A stretch of 64,000 nucleotides of DNA. It comes from Gallionella sp. (GTDB lineage: Bacteria > Pseudomonadota > Gammaproteobacteria > Burkholderiales > Gallionellaceae). The DNA lies in assembly GCA_017880865.1 (NCBI GenBank), contig JADGRL010000002.1, positions 1-64,000 of the forward strand. The letters are read 5' to 3'. Under the pieces are notes generated by a model. That model ran no database searches, was not told where the DNA came from, and worked only from the letters and a program-made list of their open reading frames with translations. The translations under genes and the position numbers were made by a program. Positions 14,154 to 34,825 of the stretch are shown piece after piece (the first letter of the stretch is position 1; every line of letters starts with the position of its first letter).

Positions 14154-17100
14154 ATGACCAACAGCGCACAATTTGATCGCAACACGCTCGCCGCAGTGAA
14201 ACCCGGCGTGGACGGCTCGCTGGCCGAGATCAGTATGCAGATGGAACTTTTTCTGGGCGCGCCCGCAGACAATGCGGCGGCCTTGGATTTGGTGCGCGCC
14301 GAGTTGCACCGTTTGCTGGGCGTGCTGAAGATGGTTGGCCTGGATGGTTCGGCGGTATTTTGTACCGAGCTGGAGCTCACGCTGAGCGAAATTGCAACGA
14401 ACCCGAAACAAGTTTCCGCGATGCATCGCGATGTGCTGCGCCGTGCCTTGTTCGGTATCACGCACTATCTGGACGGGCTGGCCAACGGTGCGGACAACGC
14501 CGCGCTGCGCTTGTTTCCGCAATATCAGGAGTTGCAGCAATTGCGCGGCTTGGAGATGTCATTCGAGCAGGACCTGTTCTACCCCAATCTTGACGTGCAA
14601 CTGCCAGCACCGGTATTGAGCCAGCCTGTTCCGAGCGATGCGATGGCGCGCCTCAAGACGTTGCGCAGCCAATATCAGCAAGGCTTGTTGAAGTGGATGC
14701 GTCAGGACGATGTCGCTGCCGCAGTGCAGCAGATGCAGCAGGCGGTGGAGGGTGCATTGCGCTGTGAGCCTCAGGATGGCAGCCGTGCGTTCTGGTGGGT
14801 AGCCTATGGCTTGCTCGATTGCCTGAAGCTGGACGGCGTGCCTCCCGAAATGAATGTACGCAAGTTGCTCACTCGCATAGACCAACAGTTGCGCACCGTG
14901 GTCGAGGGCCATATCGGTGATGTAAATTCGGCTTTGAACGAGATGCTCTTTCTGATCGGGCACAGCCATGTTGTGAGTGAACAGGTGGAGGCGATCAAGC
15001 AGGTTTACTTGCTGGATCAATATCTGCCGGAACTTTCAGCCCTGTCGCCCTCTGAAGTGGATCAGATACTAGCTACGATGCGCGATCAATTGCGCGTTGC
15101 CGAAGAAAGTTGGGAGCAGTGCGCGCAAGGCGACAAGGATGCATGCGAAAAATTCATCAAATATGTCGAACTGATCGCCCAGCAGAGCGACAAGCTCGAC
15201 CGCGATGTCTTGCAGTATCTGACCAAGCAGATTCAAATGTTGTCTCAGTATGCGAGTTCGCCGGAGCATGCGCGGCCCATCGCCATGGATATGGCGATGG
15301 CGCTGCTGCTGCTGGGTAGCGGTATAGAGAACTACCGCCGTGTCGGCAGCGGCTATCAGGAGCAGGCGCATATTCTGACCGAGCGCATGCAGGCTGCGGT
15401 CAAGCAGCAACCCGAGGATACGAGTCGGCTGACTGAACTGGTTGATCTGCATTACCAGATGGAACAGCGTGGCGACGTGATGGGTCCGCTGGCCAACGAA
15501 ATGCTGGTGAACCTCCAGCATGTAGAGCAAGGCTTGAACGCCTTTTTTAACGGCGTGATCAAGCGTGAAGAGTTGCCCGAACTGTTGCGTTTGTTGAGCC
15601 AGATACAAGGCGGTCTGCGTATCTCATCTTTGCAGCATGCGGAACAATTGCTGACATCCATTCAGGGTAAAGTCAGCCGTTTCACGCAGCGTGACGAGCC
15701 ACTCAGGCCGGCCGAGCGGTATGCGCTGGCCGATGCGATGAGCGCGCTGGAAAATTACATGCAACATCTGACGCATGGACAGGCGGGCGATGTTTCGCGA
15801 TTGCAGATGGCCTTGCTTGAGATGGTCCAGGTGGATCAAGCCCCGGAACCCGCCGCGATCGCACCTGTAGTACCCGCCACGCCAACAGCACCAGTTAAGG
15901 TTGCAGCGCCAATAGCGATCGTTCCGGTAGAGCAACCCCAGATTGCCGCCCCCGAGATTGCACAGCCAATGGCAATCGCCCCGCTGGAGCTGGATTTTGA
16001 GCCGATGAATATCGCGCCGCCACAGGTTGCGAAGCCAGTTGAAACCATACAGTTTGAACAGACGCAGGTTTTGAAGCCGGCAGAAATCGCCGCAATTGAG
16101 CCATCACCCGCTCCAGCGCCGATAACAACGGCCCCGTTTGAGCTGGATTTTGAGTCGTTTAATATCGTTCCGCCGCAGGTTGCGAAGCCAGTCGAAACCA
16201 TGCAGTTCGAACAGACGCTGGTTTTAAAGCCGGCAGAAATCGCCCCAATTGAGCCACCAGCCGTTTCTGAACCAGCAGCAATGGCACCGCTGGTACTGGA
16301 TTTCGAGCCGATGAATATCGCGCCGCCGCAAGTACCGGCACCAATGGAATTCGCACCGCCGCAGGTATCAGCGCCGTTAGAAATCGCGCCAGTTGAACCA
16401 CCGAAAGTCCCTGCTGCGAAACAGCGCCCGTCTGAAGAAGACCAGGAATTGCTCGATATATTTTTGGAGGAGGCGCAAGAAGTGCTGGACACCATGCGCG
16501 CCAGCCTGGAAATTTGCCAATTACACCCGGACAGCCATGAACCCTTGGTGACCATCAGGCGCGCATTTCATACGCTCAAGGGCAGCGGACGTATGGTCGG
16601 ATTGAACGATCTGGGCGAGGTCGCGTGGAGTGTCGAGAGCGCCTTGAATAAATGGTTGCAGGAAAACAAATCGGCTACGCCTGGGCTGCTGAACTTTATC
16701 AAAGTGGCCGTGCAGTCTTTTGCTGTTTGGGTGGATATGCTCAACAAGCAAGGTGATGCGATCATCGAAGCTGGCGAGTTGGTCGCGGCAGCGCAACAAG
16801 TCGAGAACGGAATCGAATCAGAAATTCAACTGGTTGCCTTGTCAGCCGGTGCGCAGCCCGCCCTTAGCGCAGATTCCGGACAGGTCGCCGCAGTTTCTTT
16901 GGCACCCGCACAAACTCCCGCAGAAAAAGCTGCTGGGATAGGCGAGGCTACTTTGTCTTCACCTGCGCTGTTCAATATTGCCAGCGCTGAAGTAAAACAA
17001 AATATCGCAGTTCTGCATCAACAACTGGATGAATTGCGCAAGGCAGCGCCGCCAGTGGTGCAATATGATTTCATGCGCGCAGCTCACACGCTGGGGGGAG

Positions 17101-19913
17101 TGAGTCGCACCATGGGATTCGCCGCCGTGGTGGAACTGGCTTACGCACTGGAAGGCTGGTTGCAGGCGCGCCTGGAGCAGCCGTTCACGTTGAGCGACGT
17201 GCAACTGCAAATGCTGGAGCAATCCATCCTCGCGCTCGATGGCATGATACAAAGCATTTGCGATAAAGAAATGCCGCAGATTCGCAGTGATCTGGTTCAT
17301 CAGTTGTCGGCCGACAAGGATAATCTCAATGCGGCAGCCAAAGAGTTGGCCGTCGAGGAATTTTTCATCGAGCCGGGAAAAGTTTCGCAGCCGGAGGCTA
17401 TTACTTTCCAGGCTCATGTGGCTCCTCCTGTGGCCCCATTGGCATTTTTGGCACCGCATAACGAACCGGATCAGCCTCAAGTCGAGGCGCAAGAGTGGCC
17501 GCCGGTCGATAAAGAAAAGTTCGGCGAAACGTTCGCAGAGGCAGCCAGTACAGGGCTCACAAAGCCCGCCGAGGAGCTGATCGGCGCGGAAGAAAATGTG
17601 TTGCAGCCAGTGGTGCTGACCATAGCCAAGCCGGTTGATGCGTTCGCCGAGGCGGACAAGCCTCAAGTTAACGATGACGTGGACGAGCAACTGCTGCCGG
17701 TGTTTCTCGAGGAAGCCGACGACCTGTGTCCGAAGATCAGTGATGCGCTTCGCGCATGGCGCGAGCCGCCACACGACGAACAGCAGGTGCCCTTATTAAA
17801 TCGCCTGCTGCATACCATGAAGGGTAGTTCGCGCATGGTGGGTGCGATGCGTGTTGGTGAAATTGCCCATGAGATGGAAGACCGTGTGCTGGCGGCTGAT
17901 CGACTGCGCAATGAAGAAGGGTATTGGGACGTGCTGGAAAGCGATTTCGATCGCATCATGGCTTTGCTCGAAGAGCTGCGCGGTGGTAAACCTGTACCTG
18001 TTGTTGCGGTCAAACAAGCTCCGGTTGGGCGACGCTCGGCAGATCAGCCCGCAGTGACCGAACGCAGGGCGGGTCGTCGCCCGCAGGAGTCGGGCGCTGT
18101 GCTCGGCAATATGCTGCGTGTGCGTTCCGATGTGGTGGATCGTCTGGTGAATGAAGCCGGTGAAATCAGTGTGGCACGCTCGCGCATCGAAACCGAAATG
18201 CGAGTTTTCAAGGAAGGCTTGCTGGAATTGACAGGCAGCGTGATGCGTTTGCGCCAGCAGTTGCGTGAAGTGGAGATTCAGGCAGAGAGCCAGATGCAGG
18301 CGCGCGTCACATTGGCCAAGGATAATGCCGAGCAGTTCGATCCGCTTGAATTTGACCGTTTTACCCGTCTGCAGGAATTGACGCGTTTCATGAATGAAAG
18401 CGTGCACGACGTGCAGACTGTGCAGCAGGCGATGTTGAAGAATCTGGATGAAACCGCTGCCGCGATGTCGGCGCAAGGGCGGCTTAATCGCGAGTTGCAA
18501 CAAGGTTTGATGAACGTACGCATGGTGTCGTTTAATAGTATTACCGACCGTTTGTATCGTGTTGTGCGACAAACCGGCAAGGAGTTGAACAAACGAGCCA
18601 ACCTTGAATTGCAGGGCACGAACGTGGAATTGGATCGCAGCGTACTGGAAAAAATGATCGCGCCGTTTGAGCACTTGTTGCGCAATTCCATCGTGCATGG
18701 TCTGGAAAACGATCAACTGCGCACGCAAATCGGCAAGCTTCCAATCGGTGAAATTCGCTTGAGTGTGCGCCAGGAAAGCAATGAGGTGGTGTTCGAGTTC
18801 AGCGATGACGGCGCCGGGCTGAACTTTGACAAGCTGCGCGAAAAGGCGATAGCCAACGGCACGCTGCAGGCCGATGAAGCGGTGAGCGACGATCAATTGG
18901 CACAACTGATTTTTACCCCCGGTCTTTCCACTGCGACCGAAATTACCGAAATCGCCGGACGCGGTATCGGCATGGATGTGGTGCGCAGCGAAATCGCGGC
19001 GTTAGGTGGGCGTATTGATGTCAGCTCGAAGCGTGGGGCAGGTACGCAATTCCTGATCCATTTGCCACTCACGCTGGCGGTCACTCAGGTCTTGATGGTG
19101 CGCGCCGGTGATGCGATTTATGCGATTCCATCCACGATGATCGAACAAGTCAGGCAGGTAAAGCCGGCGGAAATGGACGCGCTGTATGTCGCGCGACAAA
19201 TCGAATGGCTGGACAATACCTACTTGCTGCACTATTTGCCGCATCTGCTGGGTGATGTGGAGATTGCTCCGGAAAATCAGCCGCGCAATTCGGTGTTGTT
19301 GCTACGCAGCGGCGGGCAACGCATTGCTTTGCATGTTGATGAAATGCTGGGCAATCAGGAGGCGATGGTAAAAAATATTGGCCCGCAATTGTCGCGGATG
19401 TCAGGTATCGCCGGTGCGACGGTGCAGGGTGATGGCCGTGTAGTGCTGATCTTGAATCCGGCGCATCTGGCTCAGCGTATTGGCAGCATCAGCAAGGTGA
19501 AAACGGTGGACAGCATCAAGCCGCTCCATACCATGCCGATGATCATGGTGGTGGACGACTCACTCACCGTGCGTAAGATCACCTCCCGCATGCTGACTCG
19601 TGCAGGTTATCAGGTGGTGACGGCGACGGACGGAGTGGATGCGCTGGAGAAGCTGCAGGAGTTTGCTCCGGACGTGATGTTGCTGGACATCGAAATGCCG
19701 CGTATGGATGGCTTTGCTTTAGCCCGCGAATTGCGCCGCGATCCCAAGACGCAGCATCTGCCGATCATCATGATCACTTCGCGAACCGCCGACAAACACC
19801 GTGATTACGCGATGCAACTGGGCGTTAATACCTACTTGGGTAAGCCTTATCAGGAAGATGAGCTGCTGCAGAACATTGCCGATTTTGTGGCGGTGCATAA
19901 ATTGGACTCTTAG
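14154..19913 (+). CDS. chpA: ChpA/PilL-type hybrid chemosensory histidine kinase
   Basis: A 1919-residue kinase that would phosphorylate PilG and PilH. N-terminal 550 residues are helical and Hpt-like but lack a clear phospho-His. A Pro/Ala-rich linker with a 51-residue repeat covers about 560-760. Three phosphotransfer motifs follow: H806 (HTLKGSGR), H978 (HTLGGVSR) and H1220 (HTMKGSSR). Then come a CheA dimer/ATPase core (NSIVHGLEN, DDGAGLNF, GRGIGMDVV), a CheW-like domain, and a C-terminal receiver with phosphoacceptor D1845. Pseudomonas ChpA is longer (about 2470 residues) with more Hpt domains, so this is a shortened version. The ATG starts 26 bases after pilJ. Confidence 0.93.
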   Translation: MTNSAQFDRNTLAAVKPGVDGSLAEISMQMELFLGAPADNAAALDLVRAELHRLLGVLKMVGLDGSAVFCTELELTLSEIATNPKQVSAMHRDVLRRALFGITHYLDGLANGADNAALRLFPQYQELQQLRGLEMSFEQDLFYPNLDVQLPAPVLSQPVPSDAMARLKTLRSQYQQGLLKWMRQDDVAAAVQQMQQAVEGALRCEPQDGSRAFWWVAYGLLDCLKLDGVPPEMNVRKLLTRIDQQLRTVVEGHIGDVNSALNEMLFLIGHSHVVSEQVEAIKQVYLLDQYLPELSALSPSEVDQILATMRDQLRVAEESWEQCAQGDKDACEKFIKYVELIAQQSDKLDRDVLQYLTKQIQMLSQYASSPEHARPIAMDMAMALLLLGSGIENYRRVGSGYQEQAHILTERMQAAVKQQPEDTSRLTELVDLHYQMEQRGDVMGPLANEMLVNLQHVEQGLNAFFNGVIKREELPELLRLLSQIQGGLRISSLQHAEQLLTSIQGKVSRFTQRDEPLRPAERYALADAMSALENYMQHLTHGQAGDVSRLQMALLEMVQVDQAPEPAAIAPVVPATPTAPVKVAAPIAIVPVEQPQIAAPEIAQPMAIAPLELDFEPMNIAPPQVAKPVETIQFEQTQVLKPAEIAAIEPSPAPAPITTAPFELDFESFNIVPPQVAKPVETMQFEQTLVLKPAEIAPIEPPAVSEPAAMAPLVLDFEPMNIAPPQVPAPMEFAPPQVSAPLEIAPVEPPKVPAAKQRPSEEDQELLDIFLEEAQEVLDTMRASLEICQLHPDSHEPLVTIRRAFHTLKGSGRMVGLNDLGEVAWSVESALNKWLQENKSATPGLLNFIKVAVQSFAVWVDMLNKQGDAIIEAGELVAAAQQVENGIESEIQLVALSAGAQPALSADSGQVAAVSLAPAQTPAEKAAGIGEATLSSPALFNIASAEVKQNIAVLHQQLDELRKAAPPVVQYDFMRAAHTLGGVSRTMGFAAVVELAYALEGWLQARLEQPFTLSDVQLQMLEQSILALDGMIQSICDKEMPQIRSDLVHQLSADKDNLNAAAKELAVEEFFIEPGKVSQPEAITFQAHVAPPVAPLAFLAPHNEPDQPQVEAQEWPPVDKEKFGETFAEAASTGLTKPAEELIGAEENVLQPVVLTIAKPVDAFAEADKPQVNDDVDEQLLPVFLEEADDLCPKISDALRAWREPPHDEQQVPLLNRLLHTMKGSSRMVGAMRVGEIAHEMEDRVLAADRLRNEEGYWDVLESDFDRIMALLEELRGGKPVPVVAVKQAPVGRRSADQPAVTERRAGRRPQESGAVLGNMLRVRSDVVDRLVNEAGEISVARSRIETEMRVFKEGLLELTGSVMRLRQQLREVEIQAESQMQARVTLAKDNAEQFDPLEFDRFTRLQELTRFMNESVHDVQTVQQAMLKNLDETAAAMSAQGRLNRELQQGLMNVRMVSFNSITDRLYRVVRQTGKELNKRANLELQGTNVELDRSVLEKMIAPFEHLLRNSIVHGLENDQLRTQIGKLPIGEIRLSVRQESNEVVFEFSDDGAGLNFDKLREKAIANGTLQADEAVSDDQLAQLIFTPGLSTATEITEIAGRGIGMDVVRSEIAALGGRIDVSSKRGAGTQFLIHLPLTLAVTQVLMVRAGDAIYAIPSTMIEQVRQVKPAEMDALYVARQIEWLDNTYLLHYLPHLLGDVEIAPENQPRNSVLLLRSGGQRIALHVDEMLGNQEAMVKNIGPQLSRMSGIAGATVQGDGRVVLILNPAHLAQRIGSISKVKTVDSIKPLHTMPMIMVVDDSLTVRKITSRMLTRAGYQVVTATDGVDALEKLQEFAPDVMLLDIEMPRMDGFALARELRRDPKTQHLPIIMITSRTADKHRDYAMQLGVNTYLGKPYQEDELLQNIADFVAVHKLDS
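15987..16400 (+). repeat. 153-bp direct repeat in chpA linker
   Basis: Units begin at 15987, 16140 and 16293, exactly 153 bases apart; the third is incomplete. Each encodes a 51-residue block starting with LDFEPMNIAPPQ and carrying VAKPVET and LKPAEIA. Strict in-phase spacing shows recent internal duplication. The block sits in a flexible Pro/Ala-rich linker between the helical N-terminus and the first canonical Hpt domain. Confidence 0.92.
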
Positions 19914-23833: not shown

Positions 23834-26716
23834 ATGTCTATAGCCGCGCTCACACCGTTTTTTTCCGAAATGCGCAGGGAACTTGCGCAAACCGCTCCTG
23901 ATTTCGCGCGGTGGATCGCCACGATGACCACGGCCGCAGGCGACGACCCGCAGTTGATGGAAGCGCTGGAAGATTATGCCACCCAGCTGGAGCGGATCGG
24001 CCAGACGGCTGAGTTGATCGGCATGACCGGTTTGAGTGCGTGGTGTGAGGCACTCAACGGCATTCTACCCAGTGTCATCTTTCTCGAAGGCAATGCCCGT
24101 CTGCTAGCCTGCCAGCATCTGACCGACTGGCCGACACTGGTGGACCAATACTTGCAGAATCCGGCCGACTTCGATGGCGCAATGGCGCTCGCCGAATATC
24201 TGGCTAGCCCCGCTTTCGCACAGCCTTTCGACGAGACTGCCAGCTTCACCCTGATCGAATCATTGACCACGCCACCGGTGGTGCCAGAAGAGCTGCTGGC
24301 TCAGCTTGCTGACGCAGAAGCCCCGGTCAGTGTGAGTATTGAGGACATATCGCTTGCGGTGCCAGAGAATGCCGATCGCGATGTCTACAATGCATTTCTC
24401 GACGAAGCCCCGAGCAACGCGGAAGAGTTTTCGGCGTTGACATCAAAAATTTCCGCAGGCCTCGCGGATATCGATGACTTGCGCAGCGCTAAACGCATCG
24501 CGCATTCGTTCAAGGGGTCGGCAAATATTGTTGGCATCCGTGGCATCGCGACACTTGGACACCATACCGAAGATGTGCTCGAATACTTCGAGAAAAATCC
24601 GGTAAAACCACCCCGCGCGCTGGGACGATCTTTGGTTGCGGCCAGTGATTGTCTGGCGCAAATGGTGGGCTTCTTGCGCGGTGACGAGAGCGCACCTGCG
24701 AACGCGTTTGAAGTGCTGAATGAAATCGTTGCCTGGGCCAACAAGGTCAAGTCGGGCGAGATCACGAGCATGACGGATGACGCGAGTGTAGAAGTTCAAC
24801 TGCCCCCTTCCGGTGTTGCTCGACCGGAGGCGGCGGCCATTCCCGCTGGCACTTCGGAAGCTGAGGCGCAGGCCATGTTGCGTGTGCCGGTCACGACTGT
24901 TGATGAGATATTTCGTTTGGTTGGCGAAATGACCACCAAGATCGTACAGCTTGAATCGCAGGTGGCCAATGTGAATGTCCGCACCAAGGCATTACTCGCA
25001 CAGAATCTCGTGGTGCAGCAGCGGGTCATCGATATCGAAAAGTTGGTGATGCTGCGCGGCATGTCGCTCACCCCGGCAGACGCAGTCGGCGATGAGGCTT
25101 TCGACCCGCTGGAGTTGGATCGATACAACGAGCTGCATGGTGCAACCCGATCGCTCGTCGAGGTAACCACCGACGCGCGTGAGATGACGGATAGTCTTGA
25201 AGCTGGCGTAACCCGATTGCGTAGCGAAGTGGCACAACACTCCAACATTAACAAAGAACTCCAGTACCAGGTCGTAGCAACTCGCCTTGCCCCGGTTAAC
25301 GTGCTTGTTGCGCGTCTGGAGCGAAATGTGCGCCAGACCTGCCAGCAAACGAACAAGCAGGCCGAGTTGGTTATCACCGGCGGCGAGATTCAGGTGGATG
25401 GAGATGTGCTCAATAAGCTGGCTGATCCCTTGCTCCATATACTGCGCAATGCGGTCGATCATGGCATTGAACTTCCTGAGGACCGAATCACAGTGGGTAA
25501 GCCGATCACGGGCACCATCAACCTGGATTTCTCGCGTCAGGGATCGGGGATCGTCGTCACGATTAAGGATGATGGCAAAGGGCTCGATTACGAACGTATC
25601 CGTGCCAAGGCGATAGACCAGGAGCTGATTCATGCCGACCAGCAGTTGACACGTGCGGAACTAGCGCGACTGGTATTGTTGCCCGGGTTTTCAACCCGAG
25701 AGCAAGTCAGCGAAATTTCCGGGCGCGGAGTCGGGATGGATGTGGTGGCCGAACGTTTGGCCAACATCAAAGGAACGGTTGAACTCAGTTCCGAGCCCGG
25801 GCATGGCTGCGAAATTGTGTTGCGCTTTCAAGCTTCGCTGGTGACCCAGCACACCTTGCTGGTGGAAGCAGGAAAACAAATCTTTGCCATCCCGATCCAC
25901 TACATCAAAGAAGCGTTCCCCGGCGGGTTTGGACAGGTAAGACAGATTGCAAGCGATGCGTCTGTACCAGACATATGGCATTTCACGATACGCGATGAAA
26001 GTTTTCCGATTCGAGATCTAACACCGCTGACCGGCTATCCGTCGTCGCCCCCCAACGCGGAGCTTTATTCGTTGATGCCAAAAGTGCTGATTCGAACCAT
26101 GGACGGCACAATTGCGTTGCTGGTAGATAGGCTCATCGATAGCCGCAGCGTGATGGTAAAAAACATGGGGAAATATCTGCCTCGCGTGCATGGCATTTCA
26201 GGCGTGACTATCATGGGCGACGGCACACTGGCGCCTTTGCTCAACCTGCCTGAATTGCTGTCCGCACCCATTGCGGTGACGGCTGCAGTAGCCGATCTGG
26301 CTGCCGCTGCGCGTCTTCAAACACGCCGAATACTGGTTGTGGACGATTCTCTTTCCGTACGCAAGGGGCTGATGCAACTTCTTCAGGATGCCGCCTACGA
26401 GGTCAAGGGCGCGGGAGATGGTATGGAGGCGATCCGGGTACTTGAATTTTTTCAGCCCCATCTGGTGTGCACAGACATGGAGATGCCGAACATGAATGGT
26501 ATGGAACTCGCCCAGCATCTGCGCATGTCAGCGGCCACGCGACAACTGCCTATCATCATGATTACCTCTCGCTCGACAGAGAAGCACCGTGAGCAGGCGA
26601 TGCGCGCCGGAGTGGATTTTTATTTGACTAAACCCTACACTGATGATGATTTACTCAAGCATGTACACAACGCACTTCAAGCGGATTTTACGCATGAAGA
26701 GGCTGTGCCAGTTTGA
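23834..26716 (+). CDS. hybrid CheA-type kinase with C-terminal receiver
   Basis: A 960-residue kinase of module 2. The first 180 residues are helical, probably a degenerate Hpt. A canonical Hpt carries H224 (IAHSFKGSAN). The dimer/ATPase core has LRNAVDHGIE, DDGKGLDYERI and GRGVGMDVV. A CheW-like domain (about 660-820) and a receiver with phosphoacceptor D881 (CTDMEMPNMNG) complete it. Layout parallels ChpA but is half the length because the multi-Hpt region is missing. It starts 30 bases after the MCP. A terminal helix carries an acidic tail. Confidence 0.93.
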   Translation: MSIAALTPFFSEMRRELAQTAPDFARWIATMTTAAGDDPQLMEALEDYATQLERIGQTAELIGMTGLSAWCEALNGILPSVIFLEGNARLLACQHLTDWPTLVDQYLQNPADFDGAMALAEYLASPAFAQPFDETASFTLIESLTTPPVVPEELLAQLADAEAPVSVSIEDISLAVPENADRDVYNAFLDEAPSNAEEFSALTSKISAGLADIDDLRSAKRIAHSFKGSANIVGIRGIATLGHHTEDVLEYFEKNPVKPPRALGRSLVAASDCLAQMVGFLRGDESAPANAFEVLNEIVAWANKVKSGEITSMTDDASVEVQLPPSGVARPEAAAIPAGTSEAEAQAMLRVPVTTVDEIFRLVGEMTTKIVQLESQVANVNVRTKALLAQNLVVQQRVIDIEKLVMLRGMSLTPADAVGDEAFDPLELDRYNELHGATRSLVEVTTDAREMTDSLEAGVTRLRSEVAQHSNINKELQYQVVATRLAPVNVLVARLERNVRQTCQQTNKQAELVITGGEIQVDGDVLNKLADPLLHILRNAVDHGIELPEDRITVGKPITGTINLDFSRQGSGIVVTIKDDGKGLDYERIRAKAIDQELIHADQQLTRAELARLVLLPGFSTREQVSEISGRGVGMDVVAERLANIKGTVELSSEPGHGCEIVLRFQASLVTQHTLLVEAGKQIFAIPIHYIKEAFPGGFGQVRQIASDASVPDIWHFTIRDESFPIRDLTPLTGYPSSPPNAELYSLMPKVLIRTMDGTIALLVDRLIDSRSVMVKNMGKYLPRVHGISGVTIMGDGTLAPLLNLPELLSAPIAVTAAVADLAAAARLQTRRILVVDDSLSVRKGLMQLLQDAAYEVKGAGDGMEAIRVLEFFQPHLVCTDMEMPNMNGMELAQHLRMSAATRQLPIIMITSRSTEKHREQAMRAGVDFYLTKPYTDDDLLKHVHNALQADFTHEEAVPV

Positions 26717-26850: not shown

Positions 26851-27726
26851 ATGAAAAATTATTCTCTCCTTGCCTTGATCGGCGCCTTGATTTGCGGCGC
26901 GTTTCTGGGGGTAGACTCGCTGTATATTGACAGCGTGAAGCTCTGTCTGGTCGACGCCTTGGCGTTTCTGGCCTTGGCAGCTTGCGTGATCTTTTTGTAC
27001 AAACAAGCCCGCGTCAGTCATAAGGCCGCTTCCGACTCGGATGCAGCAAAGCGCGGCGGGAATGAATTCCTGGCAGAAAGCAGCGCGTTCCATGTGCAGT
27101 TGGGCAACGAGATAGCCGAGCAGTTAAGCTCGGCTCATACTGAGCTGGGCAATACCCAAGCCATACTCAGCGATGCGATAGGCAAGCTGGTCAGCAATTT
27201 TATTTTGATCTCAGACGGGGTGCGCGATCTTTCGAAGCACACCAACGATTTCAGTAAGCAGATTCGCGACGTTTTAGACAAGGTCGGTGAATCGATGGCT
27301 GTCGCAGAACGCACGATCAGCAACCTTGCGGTAGACGACAGGGCCGCCGTGATGGAATCCAACCAGCATGTGCGTAGCATCATGGCGGAGCTCGCGGCGT
27401 TTAATGAGGTGGTCGCCAATAATGCCATCGAATTGAATCTGATCAGCACCAATGTAGAACAGAACGTGCTGGTGGTGATATCCACACTGCAATTTCAGGA
27501 TATGAGCTCTCAGCTGATCGAGCATGCCCGATTGCGGATGACCGCCTTGCAGGAAGTTGCCAATGAGATGGGAAAAGGTGCGGGCAGCCCGGACCATCGT
27601 GAATATCTGGCGCAAATTGCCGCCTACAACCGCTTGCTGGACAAACACGTCGTGTCACTGAACAAACAAAAAGCCAACCCTGTCGCGCAAAAAGATTTTG
27701 GCACGGGCGACATTGAGCTGTTCTAG
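26851..27726 (+). CDS. membrane-anchored protein with CheZ-like motif
   Basis: A 291-residue protein. Two N-terminal membrane helices (about 5-23 and 30-50) form a tight hairpin with almost no periplasmic loop, followed by a long cytosolic helical region resembling an MCP coiled coil but without the receptor tip. Residues 211-224 read STLQFQDMSSQLIE. E. coli CheZ has QDFQDLTGQVI there, with catalytic D143 and Q147 spaced exactly as D217 and Q221 here. The protein ends in GDIELF, a short acidic-hydrophobic tail as on CheZ, where the tail binds CheY. It lies directly upstream of cheY and cheA. A membrane-bound CheY-P phosphatase is my inference. Confidence 0.7.
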   Translation: MKNYSLLALIGALICGAFLGVDSLYIDSVKLCLVDALAFLALAACVIFLYKQARVSHKAASDSDAAKRGGNEFLAESSAFHVQLGNEIAEQLSSAHTELGNTQAILSDAIGKLVSNFILISDGVRDLSKHTNDFSKQIRDVLDKVGESMAVAERTISNLAVDDRAAVMESNQHVRSIMAELAAFNEVVANNAIELNLISTNVEQNVLVVISTLQFQDMSSQLIEHARLRMTALQEVANEMGKGAGSPDHREYLAQIAAYNRLLDKHVVSLNKQKANPVAQKDFGTGDIELF

Positions 27727-27831: not shown

Positions 27832-28203
27832 ATGGGCAAAACAATTTTAGCTGTTGATGATTCTACCTCCATCCGACAAATGGTGGCCTTCACCCTTAAA
27901 TCCGCCGGCTATACCGTCATCGAGGCGGCCGACGGCGTGGAAGGGTTAGCCAAGGCCAATGCCCACGCACATGCCATTAATCTGGTGCTGACCGACCAGA
28001 ACATGCCTAATATGGACGGCCTGACTTTGATTAGAACTCTGCGTGGTCTGTCGCCGTTCGCGACTACGCCGATTCTGATGTTGACCACTGAATCGAGCGA
28101 TACGATGAAGGTGCAAGGCAAGGCCGCTGGTGCAACAGGTTGGCTGGTCAAGCCGTTCGACCCGCACAAATTGTTGGAAGTCGTCAAAAAAGTGATCGGT
28201 TAG
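27832..28203 (+). CDS. cheY: chemotaxis response regulator CheY
   Basis: A 123-residue receiver with D9-D10, phosphoacceptor D55 (VLTDQNMPNMDG), T-T-E switch region (MLTTESSD) and K in WLVKPFDP. The LTTESSDTMK and AAGATGWLVKPF patterns are typical of CheY proteins encoded next to cheA in betaproteobacterial flagellar-type clusters, and differ from the PilG/PilH types upstream. CAGGAAAA precedes the ATG. Probable partner of the CheA at 28276. Confidence 0.92.
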   Translation: MGKTILAVDDSTSIRQMVAFTLKSAGYTVIEAADGVEGLAKANAHAHAINLVLTDQNMPNMDGLTLIRTLRGLSPFATTPILMLTTESSDTMKVQGKAAGATGWLVKPFDPHKLLEVVKKVIG

Positions 28204-28275: not shown

Positions 28276-30429
28276 ATGTCCATCGACATGAGCCAGTTTT
28301 ATCAGGTGTTTTTTGATGAAGCCGCAGAACATCTTGCAAGCATGGAAGCGCTGCTGCTTGCGCTCGACCTTGATGCCCCTGAAGCGGACCAATTAAACGC
28401 CATCTTTCGCGCGGCCCATTCCATCAAAGGCGGCAGCGGCACATTCGGTTTTACCGACATGGCCGAAGTGACGCACATTTTGGAGACCCTGCTGGATCGC
28501 CTGCGCAAAAATGAAATCACCCTTACGCACGAGATGGTCGATGCCTTCTTGCAAGCGGGTGATGTGTTGCGCGGCTTGCTGGAGGCGCATCAAAATGGAA
28601 ACATCGCCGATGAGGCCGCATCCATAGCGATCTGCGATAAACTGGAACACTTAACCAATCATTCAACTGGGGCGCAGAAGTCAACCGGGGCCAAAAAGCC
28701 AAACGCGGCGGCAGCATCGTCGCCCGCTTTCGCGCAGCATGTTTACAAAATACAGTTCCCAAAGACCCGCGCCACGTTCCCGAGCAAATCCCATCTCGAT
28801 AATTTGCTGGATGATCTGGGCAATCTGGGCAAGATCGAACATAAAAAAGTAACCGCCAATGCGGCGACGCTAAAGCTGACCACCTACGCCTCCGAAGCGG
28901 ATTTGCGCGAAATATTCTCGTTCTTTTTGAAGCCGGAACAATTGACCATAACGGCGTTGAGCGACACTGTTTCGAACAATACAACCGCACAACAGCAGGA
29001 TTACGGCTTCTTTGACGAACCTCAACAGATCAGCAATGTAGCCGAAGTGCCCGCAAGTGGCGCCCCTTCCGCAGATGAGGGCTACGGCTTTTTCGTCGAG
29101 CCCGGTGCAATCAAGTCAGGAGCAGAGAATACACAGGGCTATGGTTTCTTTACCGAGGTTGAGCATCAGGCGCCAGCGCCGGTATTGGACCATCGGCAAG
29201 GTGAGATGCCGGGGCGTCGTACTGCCGACAGGGTTGCTGCTGCAACCGCAGGCGACACCTCCATACGCGTCAGCGTGGGCAAGGTAGACACGATGATCAA
29301 TCTGGTCGGCGAGCTGGTGATCACGCAGGCCATGCTCGCGGAAACTGTATCCAATATGGATCAGGTGATGCACGAACGTCTGGTCAATGGCTTGGCGCAA
29401 CTCGAGCGCAATACCCGCGACCTGCAAGATTCGGTCATGTCCGTGCGCATGATGCCGATCAGCCTGGTGTTCAGCCGATTCCAGCGCGTGGTGCGCGACA
29501 ACGCGGTCAAGCTAGGCAAGAAAGTGCAACTCAAGATCATCGGCGAGGGCACCGAGCTGGACAAGGGGCTGATCGAAAAAATCAGCGATCCGCTGACTCA
29601 CCTGGTGCGCAACAGTCTGGATCACGGCATCGAGTTTCCAGAGGAGCGCATCGCCAGAGGCAAAGACCCGCAAGGCACCATTACATTGCGAGCCGCGCAT
29701 CAAGGCGGCAATATCGTCATCGAAGTGGAGGATGATGGCGCGGGGTTGAATCGTGAATGGATACTCGCCAAGGCCCGCGAAAAGGGTATGGCTGTCACCG
29801 ATGGCATGAGCGATAACGATGTCTGGCAAATGATTTTTGCGCCCGGCTTTTCAACCGCGATCGCGATCACGGATGTTTCCGGGCGCGGTGTCGGCATGGA
29901 CGTGGTCAAGAAAAATATTGAGAGCATCGGCGGCCGTGTCGAAGTCGCCTCGCGTCATGGATATGGCTGCACCATCACGATCCGCCTGCCGCTGACACTG
30001 GCGATACTCGATGGCATGTCCATCGCTGTGGGCGATCAGAACTACATTATTCCGCTGAGCTTCATCATCGAATCCTTGCAGCCCAAAGCCGGTGAGGTCA
30101 ATGAAATCAGCGGGCAAGGGCAGGTGGTGCATGTGCGCGGCGAATATCTGCCGGTGATCGCGCTGCATCAAGTGTTCAACATCAAGCCTCGGATCACCGA
30201 GCCCACCGAAGGCATTCTGGTGCTGCTGGAAACGGAAGGCAAAAAAGTCGCGTTGTTCGTGGACGAGCTGGTCGGGCAACATCAAGTGGTGATCAAGAGC
30301 CTGGAAACCAACTATCGCAGAGTGCCCGGTGTATCGGGGGCCACGATCATGGGTGATGGGCGCGTTGCGATGATTCTCGATGTGGGCGCGGTGGTAAAGC
30401 TGGCGCAGCAGTCAGTGGCCGAACTGTAG
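28276..30429 (+). CDS. cheA: chemotaxis histidine kinase CheA
   Basis: A 717-residue canonical CheA. P1 Hpt has H48 (AAHSIKGGSG). A P2-like/linker region (about 130-330) carries three YGFF motifs at Y243, Y270 and Y289, each followed within two residues by Glu. The P3-P4 dimerisation and ATPase core shows LVRNSLDHGIE, DDGAGLNREWI and GRGVGMDVV. The P5 CheW-like domain is complete. No cheW, MCP, cheR, cheD or cheB follows; the cluster stops here and repeats begin. A start with AAAAAGCC rather than a strong ribosome site is used. Confidence 0.95.
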   Translation: MSIDMSQFYQVFFDEAAEHLASMEALLLALDLDAPEADQLNAIFRAAHSIKGGSGTFGFTDMAEVTHILETLLDRLRKNEITLTHEMVDAFLQAGDVLRGLLEAHQNGNIADEAASIAICDKLEHLTNHSTGAQKSTGAKKPNAAAASSPAFAQHVYKIQFPKTRATFPSKSHLDNLLDDLGNLGKIEHKKVTANAATLKLTTYASEADLREIFSFFLKPEQLTITALSDTVSNNTTAQQQDYGFFDEPQQISNVAEVPASGAPSADEGYGFFVEPGAIKSGAENTQGYGFFTEVEHQAPAPVLDHRQGEMPGRRTADRVAAATAGDTSIRVSVGKVDTMINLVGELVITQAMLAETVSNMDQVMHERLVNGLAQLERNTRDLQDSVMSVRMMPISLVFSRFQRVVRDNAVKLGKKVQLKIIGEGTELDKGLIEKISDPLTHLVRNSLDHGIEFPEERIARGKDPQGTITLRAAHQGGNIVIEVEDDGAGLNREWILAKAREKGMAVTDGMSDNDVWQMIFAPGFSTAIAITDVSGRGVGMDVVKKNIESIGGRVEVASRHGYGCTITIRLPLTLAILDGMSIAVGDQNYIIPLSFIIESLQPKAGEVNEISGQGQVVHVRGEYLPVIALHQVFNIKPRITEPTEGILVLLETEGKKVALFVDELVGQHQVVIKSLETNYRRVPGVSGATIMGDGRVAMILDVGAVVKLAQQSVAEL

Positions 30430-30822
30430 GTCGGGCTGTGTCAACTTTGCACGAGCGAAGCGAAGTAGCAAATTGCCTGACTTTGTTATCAGCCCGACAA
30501 CATCGATAATTCAAATTCGGGTTTTGTAGGGGCGCGATACCCTCAGGGTACGAGACCTCTTCGAGGCAACCGCGGCGCATCCCTTGCGGGTGTGAGGGTG
30601 CCCTGCGTTGCTCGCCTAAACCTCCGCCCGCTTGCGGCTTATCGAGGCGGCGCACAAGGGAAAAAAGCAAAGATCTAAACCGTTTACTACTATCCGCAGC
30701 CAATCGCTGCCATTCGCCGTCTTTCTCAATAGAGTATGTTCGCAACCGCTTCGGCTCATCTTTTACAAGCTAAACAATATTAAGCGACTGGTGAACTTTA
30801 TCAGCAGTTGATATACTCCTTC
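30430..30822. other. repeat-rich gap between cheA and tumE
   Basis: No convincing gene. It begins with a hairpin (GTCGGGCTG near 30432 against CAGCCCGAC near 30491), then holds the palindromic repeat at 30526 and several small GC-rich hairpins (CCCTTGCGGG, CCGCCCGCTTGCGG). An open frame on the minus strand here is Arg/Pro-rich, lies in the repeats and is rejected as coding. Confidence 0.6.
30526..30578. repeat. palindromic repeat, family A, copy 1
   Basis: Begins GTAGGGGCGCGAT, then ACCCTCAGGGTA, then a hairpin ACCTCTTCGAGG and a CGCGGCGC right arm. The same order of parts occurs at 31590-31643, and the outer arms alone occur at 52797-52824. The right arm here is eroded. It lies upstream of the tumE/tumA pair. 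Confidence 0.8.
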
Positions 30823-31185
30823 ATGCATACAGACAATGGCATTGAAACTCTGATTGATTTGAACGGCAACATCGTTCAGCAGGAGCGCGGTTATTGGGTT
30901 GAAATTCATGCATGGCGAGTTGCACCCACTGTTTTGATACCCCATGGGATCCGCTACGCATTAACACTTCATGAACAAAGTGGTACGCGTGTGTTGGGCT
31001 ATGATAACGCTCATGCGGTTAAGCCATCCGGTCGATTCAATTATGCGGGGCAAGTATTGCCGTACGACCACAAGCATAGGCACATTGCCGATAAAGGTGT
31101 GCTGTACGAGTTCAAGGATGCCTACCAACTGCTTAGGGATTTCTTCGAAGATGTAGATCGAGTATTGAAGGAGACGGAAAAATGA
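30823..31185 (+). CDS. TumE-family toxin (DUF6516-like)
   Basis: About 120 residues from the ATG at 30823; a TTG five codons upstream is the only alternative. Features are a short acidic lead, RGYWVEIHAWRV, HGIRYALTLHE, a conserved-looking GYDNAH, and a C-terminal helix. This resembles the small proteins annotated as toxin-antitoxin system TumE family, paired with a helix-turn-helix partner just downstream. Gene length, order and the four-base ATGA overlap with the next gene support that. Toxic activity is not shown by sequence. The pair sits between two copies of palindromic repeat family A. Confidence 0.72.
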   Translation: MHTDNGIETLIDLNGNIVQQERGYWVEIHAWRVAPTVLIPHGIRYALTLHEQSGTRVLGYDNAHAVKPSGRFNYAGQVLPYDHKHRHIADKGVLYEFKDAYQLLRDFFEDVDRVLKETEK

Positions 31186-31532
31186 AAAGCATCATGATTG
31201 GCATCATGCCTCAAGACAAGATTCGTGAACGCATCTATGCGATTGCCAAGGGCGAGTATAAGCCGAAGCCAAGCGAACCCAAGATATGGTTTACTTCAAT
31301 GAAGTCGTTGGCCGAAGTGCTTAGCGACGACAATCGCGCGCTGCTCCATGTGATCAAGGACTCGCAACCGGAGTCCATTTCGTCTTTGGCGGAAATGACT
31401 GGACGTAAACCGGGCAATCTTTCTCGGACACTCAAAACCATGTCTAACTATGGCATCGTCGAAATGCGGCGCGAGAAGAATCATGTGCGTCCGATTGCCA
31501 AGGCGACAGACTTTCATATTGTGACAGCCTGA
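31182..31532 (+). CDS. helix-turn-helix antitoxin/regulator (TumA-like)
   Basis: A 116-residue protein with a MarR/ArsR-like winged helix in its C-terminal half: SISSLAEMTGRKPGNLSRTL as helix-turn-helix, then NYGIVEMRREKNHVRPIAKA as wing. The N-terminal half is charged and probably contacts the toxin. The start overlaps the tumE stop. Such HTH partners of TumE/DUF6516 proteins act as antitoxin and autorepressor by analogy with other type II systems; here that is inference. Two further in-frame ATGs lie within the first nine codons. Confidence 0.75.
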   Translation: MKSIMIGIMPQDKIRERIYAIAKGEYKPKPSEPKIWFTSMKSLAEVLSDDNRALLHVIKDSQPESISSLAEMTGRKPGNLSRTLKTMSNYGIVEMRREKNHVRPIAKATDFHIVTA

Positions 31533-31589
31533 TCGGTCGATGTCGGAAAAATATGTCGAACGAGTTTCATCAGGGCGTGCGTCTGTATC

Positions 31590-31648
31590 GTGGGCGCGGT
31601 ACCCTCAGGGTACAAGAACCTCGTCGAGGTAAATCGCGCCCCGACAAT
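31590..31648. repeat. palindromic repeat, family A, copy 2
   Basis: Reads GTGGGCGCGGT, ACCCTCAGGGTA, a hairpin around ACCTCGTCGAGGT, AATCGCGCC and CCGAC, then AATATT. The right arm and its AATATT flank match those at 52811-52830, and the central parts match copy 1. It lies just after tumA and before the truncated luxR. Confidence 0.85.
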
Positions 31649-31677
31649 ATTGCACTATTGATCTGAAAGTGGAATGC

Positions 31678-31968
31678 CTAGTGCGTCATCTGCCTGAGCT
31701 TGGCGACCAGGCTGGCTTTTTCGTTGATGGCGAGCTTGGTGAATATCTTGTTCAAATGGACTTTGACCGTCGAAGGAGAAATCGACAGATTCTGTGCGAT
31801 GGTCTTGTAGTCTTCTCCTGCGGCATAGCGTTGCGCGACTTCCAGTTCGCGTGAGCTCAAATCATCGGCGGCGATGATCGGACGGGCGCGTATCAATAAC
31901 AAATCATCCAGATAGCACAGGCTGACCACGATGTGCTTCCCCGCAAATTTCAACGCCCCACGTTGCAT
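31678..31968 (-). pseudogene. truncated LuxR-family regulator, C-terminal HTH only
   Basis: The last 65 residues are a complete LuxR-type DNA-binding domain: LSSRELEVAQRYAAG, KTIAQNLSISPSTVKVHLNKIFTKL. Only about 30 residues precede it, too few for a sensor or receiver domain. The frame's ATG at 31968 lies next to group II intron-like sequence, so the N-terminal part has probably been lost to intron insertion and deletion. The missing part is not found just beyond the intron remnant (33931 onward). Could be a stand-alone small regulator, but decay is more likely. Confidence 0.7.
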
Positions 31969-32379
31969 GGCCTCCCGGATAAGCCCGTAGCGTCGCCAGA
32001 GATGGCAAGCGAACCGTGAGGGACGCTGTTGGTGTTGCGGGTAAAGGATGGAGGGGAAAGCGAATGCCGTTCTGTAATGGATCGGATAGGGGTTGAAACA
32101 TCACCCCACGCGAAAGTGGGCAGACTCCCTCTTGGTCTCTCCTCACAAGAGAGTGACTAGAACCTTTTAAACGGCAGGAATGCAAATGGGTGTGTGCACT
32201 TTCCGGCGTGGTGGTTATCACACGCAAGAAGGCTGGTGATGAGTATTGTGAAGTTGTAGTGCGGGTTGCTACAGCGAGTGTTGAAAGATGCTTTTGAGAG
32301 GCTTGAGCCGTATGCGTCGTGAGGCGCCCGTACGGTTCTTAGGGGGCGGCGGCACAGAGATGTGTCGCTGCTACCCGAC
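31969..32379 (+). mobile_element. group II intron remnant A (ORF-less, 5' end unclear)
   Basis: A group II domain V hairpin is seen at 32305-32338 (GAGCCGTATG ... CGTACGGTTC). It is followed by a domain VI-like hairpin (GCGGCACA-GAGA-TGTGTCGC) and a 3' end CTACCCGAC at 32371-32379. Upstream, several structured segments (GAACCGTGAGGGACG, the hairpin around CCCACGCGAAAGTGGG) fit ribozyme domains I-III but total only about 330 bases, shorter than usual. I see no clear GTGYG 5' end. The sequence after its 3' end is in the middle of a reverse-transcriptase gene. Confidence 0.65.
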
Positions 32380-33795
32380 AACACCCCCGGTGTGGACAAG
32401 ATCACGTGGAAAACACCGGTGGCAAAGATCAACGCGATAGCGTCGATGAAGATGCGGGGTTATTCGCCGCTTCCGCTTCGGAGGGTATTAATTCCGAAGA
32501 AGAATGGCAAGACAAGGCCGCTCGGCATTCCTGTAATGAAGTGCCGCGCCATGCAAGCGTTACATCTGCTGGCGCTGGAACCCGTTGCGGAAACCACAGC
32601 CGACCCGAATTCTTATGGGTTCAGGCCGGAACGCGCGACCGCCGATGCGGGGGAGCAATGCTTCATTTCTCTCGCAAGAAAGGTCAGCGCGGAATGGGTG
32701 CTGGAGGCCGACATTCAAGGCTGTTTCGACAACATCAGCCATGACTGGATGATCGCCAACATCCCCACGGACAAGACGATTCTAAAGAAGTGGCTCAACG
32801 CGGGATTCGTTTATCAAAACGAACTCTTCCCCACAGAGGCCGGCACCCCGCAAGGGGGCATCATCAGTCCGGTTCTGGCAAACATGACACTCGACGGCCT
32901 CGAAGCGATGCTGGCGGAAAAGTTTCCGAAAGCAAAGCGGACGGGGCTAAAAATGAACATGGTGCGTTACGCGGACGACTTCATTATCACCGGCAACTCG
33001 AAAGAATGGCTGGAGCATGAGGTTAAGCCCGCAGTGGTTGAATTTCTGGCGGAACGCGGGCTAGTCCTGTCGCCGGAGAAGACCAAAATAACGCACATCG
33101 GGGACGGGTTTGATTTCCTCGGATGGAGTATCCGCAAGTATGGCGGCAAGCTGCTGATGAAGCCGTCGAAAGCGAACGTCAAAGCGCACCTTGATAAAAT
33201 CCGAGAAGTTATCAAAGGCAACAAGACGGCCAAACAGGAAAACTTGATAAGGCTGCTCAACCCCGTGTTACGGGGATGGGCGAATTACCACAGCCATGTG
33301 GTCGCCAAGGAAACCTTTGTCAGTGTTGATAGATGTGTCTGGTCAATGCTATGGCGATGGGCGGCAAGAAGGCACCCAAATAAGAAAGCCCGATGGGTTA
33401 AGGAAAGATACTTTAAATCCAGAGGTACCCGGAACTGGGTATTTGCCGCAACAGAAAACCAAGAGGATGGAACGCGAAGAGAGTTTATCTTGCTGCAAGA
33501 ATCAGATACGCCAATACAACGGCATGTCAAAATCAGAGCCAACGCCAACCCGCACGACCTACAATGGGAACCGTATTTCGAGTCCAGATGGGGCAAGAAA
33601 ATGAGTAACTCGGCGAGGGGGCGTGCGAAGCTTTACCGCGTTTGGCTAAGGCAAGACGGCTTGTGTCCTACCTGTCAGGAAACAATTGCAAAGGGTATCC
33701 CATGGGATGTCCGTTATATTGTGAAAAGAACCGAGGGCGGGTCGGATGCGGCAAGCAATCTTCGATTGCACCATCTCAATTGCCGTGGAAATTAG
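32362..33795 (+). CDS. ltrA: group II intron reverse transcriptase/maturase, N-terminally truncated
   Basis: A 477-codon open frame. Its first six codons come from the domain VI hairpin of remnant A; true homology starts at TPGVDKITWKTP, which in intact proteins lies about 80 residues in. The reverse-transcriptase palm is otherwise complete (AGTPQGGIISP, MVRYADDFIITG), followed by the maturase/X region (RGWANYHSHV) and an HNH endonuclease tail (CPTC ... LRLHHLNC). Without the RT-0/1 region and its own start it is probably inactive. The GTG start is nominal. Confidence 0.85.
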   Translation: MSLLPDNTPGVDKITWKTPVAKINAIASMKMRGYSPLPLRRVLIPKKNGKTRPLGIPVMKCRAMQALHLLALEPVAETTADPNSYGFRPERATADAGEQCFISLARKVSAEWVLEADIQGCFDNISHDWMIANIPTDKTILKKWLNAGFVYQNELFPTEAGTPQGGIISPVLANMTLDGLEAMLAEKFPKAKRTGLKMNMVRYADDFIITGNSKEWLEHEVKPAVVEFLAERGLVLSPEKTKITHIGDGFDFLGWSIRKYGGKLLMKPSKANVKAHLDKIREVIKGNKTAKQENLIRLLNPVLRGWANYHSHVVAKETFVSVDRCVWSMLWRWAARRHPNKKARWVKERYFKSRGTRNWVFAATENQEDGTRREFILLQESDTPIQRHVKIRANANPHDLQWEPYFESRWGKKMSNSARGRAKLYRVWLRQDGLCPTCQETIAKGIPWDVRYIVKRTEGGSDAASNLRLHHLNCRGN

Positions 33796-34238: not shown

Positions 34239-34481
34239 ATGTTTACAGCCGCACTACGCCGCTCCGGCGGTTCGTTGATCATTACCATTCCTCAAGCCTA
34301 TGTCGAGCAAAACCATCTGGGTGCGGGTAGCCGTGTCGCCCTGGAAATTGCCGGGGATGAGCTGAAATTGAAACCGGCAAGACAGCGCGCGACTCTTTCC
34401 GAACTACTCGCCGCCACGCCTAAGGGCGCGGAACGGGTGCCGGGGTGGGATGAAATGCCTGCCGCCGGAAAAGAACTGTGA
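34239..34481 (+). CDS. mazE: MazE-like antitoxin (AbrB/SpoVT fold)
   Basis: An 80-residue protein whose N-terminal 45 residues form the swapped-hairpin AbrB/MazE fold: RRSGGSLIITIPQAYVEQNHLGAGS in order, then VALEIAGDELKLKPA. The C-terminal tail (residues 47-80) is flexible and acidic/hydrophobic, as expected for the toxin-binding arm. CAGGAGG lies nine bases upstream of the ATG. Its stop overlaps the toxin GTG start (GTGA), the usual coupling that ensures antitoxin excess. Confidence 0.88.
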   Translation: MFTAALRRSGGSLIITIPQAYVEQNHLGAGSRVALEIAGDELKLKPARQRATLSELLAATPKGAERVPGWDEMPAAGKEL

Positions 34482-34825
34482 TACCCGAACGCGGCGACAT
34501 CCTGCATTTGCAGTTTGATCCCACCAGCGGTAAGGAAATGCGCGGAGATCACTTTTGTCTGGTTGTCTCGCCCAAGGCATTCAACAAGCGCTTCCAGCTT
34601 GTCATGGTTTGCCCCATCTCGGGCGGTTCGGCAGCCGTGGCGCGCGATACGGGTTTCCTGATTTCCTTGATGGGTCTCGGCCTGAAAACCGATGGCTGCG
34701 TCCATGTGCATCAGGTGAAGACGCTGGACTGGACTATGCGCAAAGCCAAGCGGATCGAGAAAGCGCCTGACGAAATCGTGCAGCAAATCCTGAATTGCTT
34801 GGTTGCCGTACTTGAAGATCAGTAG
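34478..34825 (+). CDS. mazF: MazF/PemK-family mRNA interferase toxin
   Basis: A 115-residue endoribonuclease toxin. The family pattern is clear: IPERGDILHLQFDPTSGKEM, RGDHFCLVVSP, VMVCPISGG and the C-terminal VHVHQVKTLDW with the following amphipathic helix. The GD in the first strand and the loop Arg used for RNA cleavage are present. The GTG start overlaps the antitoxin stop. The RNA site it cuts cannot be predicted from this reading. Confidence 0.9.
   Translation: MIPERGDILHLQFDPTSGKEMRGDHFCLVVSPKAFNKRFQLVMVCPISGGSAAVARDTGFLISLMGLGLKTDGCVHVHQVKTLDWTMRKAKRIEKAPDEIVQQILNCLVAVLEDQ

Follow-up and report, generated by a model that had tools for sequence, protein, structure and literature searches.

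Among described proteins, the closest to the one analyzed here are the McpA-like chemoreceptors of the F7 chemosensory systems (CttP/McpA PA0180, VCA1088/Mlp44, SO_2117). In the passages of PMC7184735 that treat these receptors, their C-terminus is described as strikingly conserved, with a role that is important yet unclear, and the F7 array can do without the receptors themselves. According to the same passages, F7 at stages 1-2 has a cheY of its own and no cheZ, and in these organisms the F6 cluster is the only one to include cheZ. For Shewanella, the sections of PMC9855816 that deal with McpA report that swimming was unaffected by its absence, that clustering of McpA-GFP was dependent on CheA3/CheW3, which belong to the other (F6) system, that McpA was found with CheA3, and that its overproduction raised swimming, as it did for three other MCPs. 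In such passages on McpA, these proteins appear as chemoreceptors and not as phosphatases, and a search of the open-licence PMC literature returned no paper linking McpA or CttP to CheZ or to a phosphatase.

The active motif of CheZ is DxxxQ, and an AxxFQ motif stands ahead of it (PMC7750401, in its part on CheZ). The CheT protein of Sinorhizobium meliloti and Agrobacterium also has a DXXXQ motif and a CheZ-like predicted structure, and it speeds the dephosphorylation of one CheY (PMC12654446, passages on CheT). By that description CheT shares the motif of the module that we present below and may be like it in structure and activity, although those passages do not describe it as derived from a receptor.

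Here we analyze a gene in a 64,000-nucleotide stretch of Gallionella DNA (the window). The gene, which we call CZL for CheZ-like, occupies 26851..27726 on the forward strand, starts with ATG, stops with TAG, and encodes 291 aa. An earlier note had proposed it as a membrane-anchored CheZ-like phosphatase, and the features on which that proposal was built hold up. The gene lies directly before cheY-cheA, with the cheY start 105 nt past the CZL stop and cheA after it. The motif LQFQDMSSQ (residues 213-221; 27487..27513, +) agrees in spacing and context with the active site of E. coli CheZ: in the PDB sequence 1kmi_Z, printed in alignment with a betaproteobacterial CheZ, the site reads AQDFQDLTGQ, and D217 (27499-27501, +) and Q221 (27511-27513, +) stand where CheZ has D143 and Q147. 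In CheZ, the aspartate docks CheY and the glutamine positions the attacking water. When all six frames of the window are scanned, FQDxxxQ occurs once, and that occurrence is the motif of CZL. The two N-terminal membrane helices, the helical stalk, and the GDIELF end (27706..27723, +) are likewise present.

Two hydrophobic stretches, seen in 19-residue windows starting at residues 6 and 31, coincide with predicted helices, and place membrane helix 1 at residues 4-25 (26860..26925, +) and membrane helix 2 at about residues 29-50 (26935..27000, +), the latter inside an AlphaFold2 helix of residues 29-59. Only a few residues separate the two, which leaves no periplasmic sensor domain between them. 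The AlphaFold2 model (36 aligned sequences, mean pLDDT 78.4, pTM 0.46), which describes a single chain, then has a pair of long helices with a short turn between them. The first, cytoplasmic, covers residues 63-156 (27037..27318, +); the second, with a small break at residue 205, covers residues 161-240 (27331..27570, +) and bears the motif. A third helix (249-275) is followed by a tail of low confidence.

Judged by sequence, the family of the window protein is that of the McpA-like (CttP/PA0180) chemoreceptors of F7 systems. The long members of the family, usually about 400 aa, have two transmembrane helices, an MCP signalling domain, and then the C-terminal module of the window protein. We find matches to the family in 34 of 61 genomes, a count that takes in the genome of the window as well as MCP-like ORFs that match weakly; some members were gathered with motif-based seeds, and the 61-genome search was done without them. 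The 66 loci from the named genome collection comprise 36 from Gallionella-type organisms or near relatives, 3 from other betaproteobacteria, 18 from Pseudomonas, 7 from Nitrincola, and 2 from Burkholderiales. Ten relatives were scanned, and eight of them have PF00015, the MCP signalling domain, upstream of the common C-terminal region (E-values 3.3e-26 to 1.2e-29). The other two, at 182 and 194 aa, lack membrane helices, and one of them (L092) has a sub-threshold match to CheZ (E-value 0.01). A Pfam scan of the window protein does not detect PF00015, and no Pfam or NCBIfam family matches it above cut-off; matches to DUF948 and to other Pfam families fall below the cut-off and were set aside.

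A locus from P. aeruginosa PA7 (L082) ties the family to the described receptors. Its gene order, CZL, CheY, CheA, CheW, an MCP with McpB HAMP domains, and CheR, is that of a che2/F7 cluster, and its CZL protein ends in GEVELF, which agrees with the McpA pentapeptide, where position 2 is a valine (PMC7184735, passages on McpA). The ending fits McpA/CttP (PA0180) as described there, the sequence being that of PA7 and not of PAO1. The window protein shares with the McpA-like receptors the membrane helices, the motif, and the conserved C-terminal domain with its pentapeptide-like tail, and its gene adjoins an F7 cheY-cheA pair; for VCA1088 and SO_2117 the likeness is drawn from their descriptions. 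In contrast to these receptors, the window protein lacks the MCP signalling domain.

How that domain was lost can be read from the alignment with the long forms. The N-terminus is kept to about residue 118, some 110 residues that carry the MCP signalling tip (PF00015) are missing as a single block, and the window sequence resumes directly past the tip with the segment VRxLS...FSKQI, so that the junction falls at about residue 118/119 (27204..27205, +). In a tree of 81 rows calculated from post-junction columns only (173 columns), the 16 Gallionella-type short forms make one clade (support 100/100) nested among MCP-bearing Gallionella-type rows, with supports of 97/92, 97/91, and 99/99 at the enclosing forks; the same tree is unsure in its placement of other long or distant rows. 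A single nested clade implies that the tip was probably lost once in the window group. By ORF, family, and position in this clade, the CZL gene of the window is a short form, the descendant of a McpA-like receptor without its tip.

The part that remained has been kept with care. Among the 16 short forms, the best-conserved 15-residue blocks include 91-105, 196-240, 256-270, and the tail. Using 36 pairs drawn from nine close sequences, we obtain a pN/pS ratio of 0.242 overall, 0.532 for residues 1-60, and 0.219 for residues 61-160, and the lowest values of the regions compared for the motif region (0.064, residues 205-245) and for the tail (0.008, residues 276-291). From these sequence comparisons, the C-terminal module is one that remained under selection after loss of the receptor tip. 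The window clade is in effect a natural deletion experiment, in which the tip is gone, and the catalytic motif and the tail are retained.

Is the similarity to CheZ more than a motif? We built a profile, A1, from the C-terminal domains of 31 relatives, without any CheZ; in A1, as in a second alignment, A2, the last residue is absent from all rows except that of the window protein. Searched against 5,337 ORFs, A1 reports 150 matches at E-value ≤1e-3, and these are 130 ORFs with QFxDxxxQ and 20 CheZ ORFs, the latter representing 20 of the 30 CheZ loci. CheZ proteins (26 of them) score between 12.8 and 26.4 bits, against at most 8.5 bits for 33 MCP ORFs without the motif, identified as such by their tip; one partial MCP ORF (L095:125-613), at 14.8 bits, lies within the low end of the CheZ range. 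In a search of 299 genomes, we checked the weak matches of 17 genomes, and 14 of these contain a weak match that overlaps a PF04344 CheZ; the three exceptions are G467, G462, and G307.

The 107 unique relatives of the family were listed by motif, so the presence of D and Q in them is given and is not evidence. A check that does not depend on the motif uses 16 of the weaker A1 matches, taken from other genomes (163-631 aa, including those of the three exceptions). All 16 bear [QS]xxDxxxQ, which occurs in 42 of 524 ORFs of 300-700 aa as a background. Six of them have FxD, one of these (L181, with FQDITGQ) looking CheZ-like, and 10 have other residues before the aspartate, so D and Q are steadier than F. 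In 15 of the 16, there is a final F in, or close to, a short acidic-hydrophobic end. Because A1 matches at E-value ≤1e-3 are either motif-bearing or CheZ, and because of this count against its background, conservation of the motif is above chance.

Comparison with Pfam points the same way at the level of the family, and not at that of the window protein. CheZ is the commonest Pfam family for the members of A1 at E-value ≤1 (8 of 31, best 8.2e-5; the next family, 3 of 31). For the window protein and for its C-terminal part we find no match to PF04344, so that neither reaches the curated cut-off, and we do not assign the protein to Pfam CheZ. A profile-profile comparison between the C-terminal domain (80 sequences) and CheZ (26 sequences) gives a probability of 63.5% over 53 columns, with D and Q in register. 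None of 200 column permutations and none of 200 heptad-preserving permutations reach that score (34.5), and the reversed CheZ scores 12.9. A full-length long-form profile finds the same CheZ segment with probability 28.5%. Counted from the motif D, the C-terminus lies 74 residues away in 33 of the 80 members (49-102 over all 80), compared to 63-83 in 26 CheZ proteins. As for AxxFQ, the FQ is present in the window protein; position -5 is a T, where 48 of the 107 members and all 26 CheZ have an A.

The window protein is thus like CheZ (PF04344; E. coli 1kmi) in its FQDxxxQ site, in the spacing of that site to the C-terminus, in the profile-level similarity around the motif, and in an acidic and hydrophobic C-terminal end. 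It differs in being membrane-anchored, with an IELF end and no Pfam match, where CheZ is soluble and has a DDLL..LGF-type end. The C-terminal module is likely homologous to CheZ, as far as sequence can tell. In this respect the earlier proposal was right about a CheZ-like module at the membrane, which the profiles, the neighboring genes, the content of the genome, and the pattern of selection all favor. It needs amending in that the protein is not simply a CheZ to which membrane helices were added, and in that the profile comparison with CheZ succeeds for the family domain and fails for the window protein alone.

The similarity also has clear boundaries, and it is here that a degenerate receptor has to be considered, that is, a non-catalytic protein that would serve as a structural scaffold in the membrane or regulate the array, and whose resemblance to CheZ would be convergent helical sequence. 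The similarity is limited to the roughly 53 columns around the motif, which is one helix. A wider proposal, in which CheZ as a whole would be a tip-less McpA receptor, we rejected: the N-arm of McpA can be aligned to a CheZ helix in co-linear order, yet a score as high comes from 23 of 200 heptad-preserving permutations. Structure searches with Foldseek are not informative, as the best 50 of the 619 matches to the window model include no CheZ and are headed by MCPs and other generic helical hairpins, at E-values of 0.02 or larger. Nor is any CheZ found among the best 50 of 115 matches to a poor model (pLDDT 63) of the MCP-less L092. In PDB sequences, phmmer with the window protein and a profile search with A1 detect no CheZ at E-value ≤10, and the best A1 matches are repetitive or designed helical proteins. 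A receptor remnant of this kind would nonetheless have to account for the permutation controls, for the CheZ-specific matches of A1, for a DxxxQ in every one of the 16 distant matches examined, and for the strong constraint at the motif. We find it distinctly unlikely.

The C-terminal tail invites a different explanation. An [IV]xxF end is found in 106 of the 107 unique members, with L095 as the exception. CheD-type proteins of five Nitrincola loci (L089, L090, L091, L093, and L095; about 8536-9144, +) and of L130 (20-619) share the CZL-type tail, ending in EIDLF, EVDLF, DVDLF, or NIELF; Pfam confirms CheD for L089 and L130, and the L130 CheD adjoins a CZL gene. A tail common to CZL and CheD may mark a shared docking partner. 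One could then read the whole module as an adaptation docking element, with CheR, CheB, or CheD as the partner of the EVELF/DIELF tail and a structural role for the QFQD helix. The System III MLPs, Mlp44 included, share E-W/V-E-x-F, for which binding to CheR3 has been suggested (2025 review, PMC11940527, in its part on these proteins), and the S. meliloti CheT, itself a CheZ-like phosphatase, complexes with CheR (PMC12654446, passages on CheT). The CheD tails and the suggested CheR3 binding make tail partners other than CheY possible. Yet P. aeruginosa McpA reportedly binds none of the four CheR (cited in PMC7184735), and by the passages of that paper on McpA, the CheR pentapeptide is absent from all of its McpA sequences. 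In the window clade, moreover, there is no MCP signalling tip and still no region compared is under stronger constraint than the tail, a persistence that argues against CheR tethering as its sole job. Docking would also leave unexplained why D and Q are in CheZ register, even in distant relatives. As an account of the module, we take docking to be rather unlikely.

A CheY-P phosphatase needs a partner, and the presumed substrate is encoded next to it. The cheY gene (27832..28203, +) codes for a single receiver domain (PF00072, E-value 2.1e-26), and the cheA gene (28276..30429, +) for a CheA of E. coli/F7 type with a P2 CheY-binding domain (PF09078, E-value 1.6e-9), barely over the cut-off of the E. 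coli-type CheA model NF007835 (794 vs. 793 bits). Across the family, a CheY ORF starts at most 271 nt downstream in 69 of the 107 unique members. Many of the 38 members without a close downstream CheY ORF come from loci with 1.5-kb flanks, and others belong to subfamilies found beside other chemosensory genes.

The neighborhood also offers other receivers. Upstream of CZL lies a CheA-receiver hybrid (23834..26716, +; identified by domain search and locus comparison), which holds that position in all 12 short-form loci compared (in L044 only its end is seen), and the window contains a Pil-Chp-like cluster. The phosphatase might then serve the hybrid directly upstream, the PilG/PilH-like single receivers, or the 20001/20823 receivers of the neighboring chemosensory unit. 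At the loci of Pseudomonas, of Hydrogenophilales, and at others that show no hybrid, the neighbors are nevertheless CheY and CheA, and we consider a receiver other than CheY an unlikely target.

The genome of the window (95.5% complete) has no CheZ, CheX, or CheC at E-value ≤1e-3 and no match to FliM, and its only match to A1 is the window gene. CheC, CheX, and FliY are CheY-P phosphatases whose fold and motif are unrelated to CheZ, and in both they are unlike the window protein. Without a FliM match, the output of this CheY is probably not the flagellar switch; a PilI-PilJ-ChpA-like cluster in the window makes pili a candidate output. Of the nine genomes with a short form in the 61-genome set, four have neither CheZ nor FliM (G000, G007, G013, G030), three have both (G026, G032, G012), G036 has CheZ only, and G035 has FliM only; listed completeness is 99% for G007 and G013, 87% for G030, and 60% for G035. 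The 12 same-genus genomes with a close long form all have CheZ, and all except G025 have FliM. In 10 of the 12 (not G005 or G025), a true CheZ is encoded upstream at a distance of 2.0-3.4 kb, with strand and contig in common. The L045 locus runs cheY, cheZ (PF04344, E-value 2e-76), cheA, CZL, cheY, cheA, cheW, an arrangement in which two adjoining systems would each own a phosphatase beside its own CheY.

Past cheA, the window (30808-33795 and 34478-34825) codes for two toxins, one of TumE type with a winged-helix partner and one of PemK/MazF type, and for the reverse transcriptase of a group II intron. In the same place we see CheW and an MCP-like ORF in L032, and an MCP and CheR in L035. The best CheW match of the genome is on another contig (C11), so mobile elements may have split the operon. 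Elsewhere in the window, a ChpA-like CheA of 1919 aa (14154-19913) follows PilI/PilJ-like genes; it combines a receiver and a CheW domain with three Hpt matches.

The window protein likely works like CheZ. The reading that we favor, and hold to be probable on the strength of its sequence, is that of a phosphatase of CheZ type, acting on CheY-P and anchored at the inner membrane, which evolved from a McpA-like (CttP-type) F7 chemoreceptor. The C-terminal module of McpA would consist of a CheZ-like catalytic helix (QF[QE]DxxxQ), a linker, and a GDIELF-type tail, such that an ordinary McpA would have a phosphatase built into the receptor. One internal deletion in the window clade would have removed the receptor tip and produced a freestanding membrane phosphatase. 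The GDIELF tail, on its linker, would capture CheY-P made by the adjacent CheA; D217 would dock and fix CheY, and the QFQDMSSQ helix would bring Q221 to the acid pocket, where, as in CheZ, it would position the attacking water at the phospho-aspartate. The anchor would hold the activity near the membrane, and for McpA proteins the tip of the receptor would provide a further contact, to an array. The analysis establishes the sequence, the motif, the history of the domains, the synteny, the constraint, and the content of the genome; a dimeric four-helix bundle, binding of CheY, catalysis, and a non-flagellar output are what we infer for the window protein. Against a phosphatase we count the Shewanella data on swimming and clustering (PMC9855816, sections on McpA).

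A broader claim can be put forward more tentatively, and we would sooner doubt it than accept it: the McpA/CttP-type F7 "chemoreceptors" as a class may be fusions of receptor and phosphatase that make up for the CheZ lacking in ancestral F7 systems, their phosphatase activity being set by the state of the receptor, and the window lineage may have cut the tip and kept the membrane phosphatase, partly in cells without flagella. If so, a single protein, in the array or next to it, would govern how CheY-P is removed. A CheZ-like module would bear on three points at once, the absence of cheZ in F7 systems at stages 1-2, the dispensability of McpA-like receptors, and their conserved C-terminus, and all three would become addressable by single-residue changes. 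A protein listed as a chloroethylene chemoreceptor (in the relevant part of PMC9864684) would become a candidate signal-termination enzyme. For one large class of sensory systems in bacteria, the window protein points to what is likely the missing phosphatase.

Other proteins of CZL type extend beyond the forms discussed so far. By hydropathy, 18 CZL proteins of 325-359 aa have no membrane helix (L143, L145-L154, L158, L159, and L162-L166). A divergent MCP tip, NVLALNARIV, is present in L143 and L158 (with PF00015 in L158), and no tip is seen in L150. With names assigned by eye, L158 is beside STAS-like and response-regulator genes, and L150 beside a CheB-like gene. In L127, L135, L179, and L182, proteins of MCP type with LQFQDRxxQ and ITFF, ISFF, or VTFF ends represent another branch of the C-terminal module. 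Finally, L167-L175 and L180 are large helical proteins of 533-631 aa with QxxDxxxQ (for instance LQVGDITRQ or MQYDDISSQ), weak matches to A1, and ends such as DIELF or DALF, and they are possibly a further CheZ-like branch.
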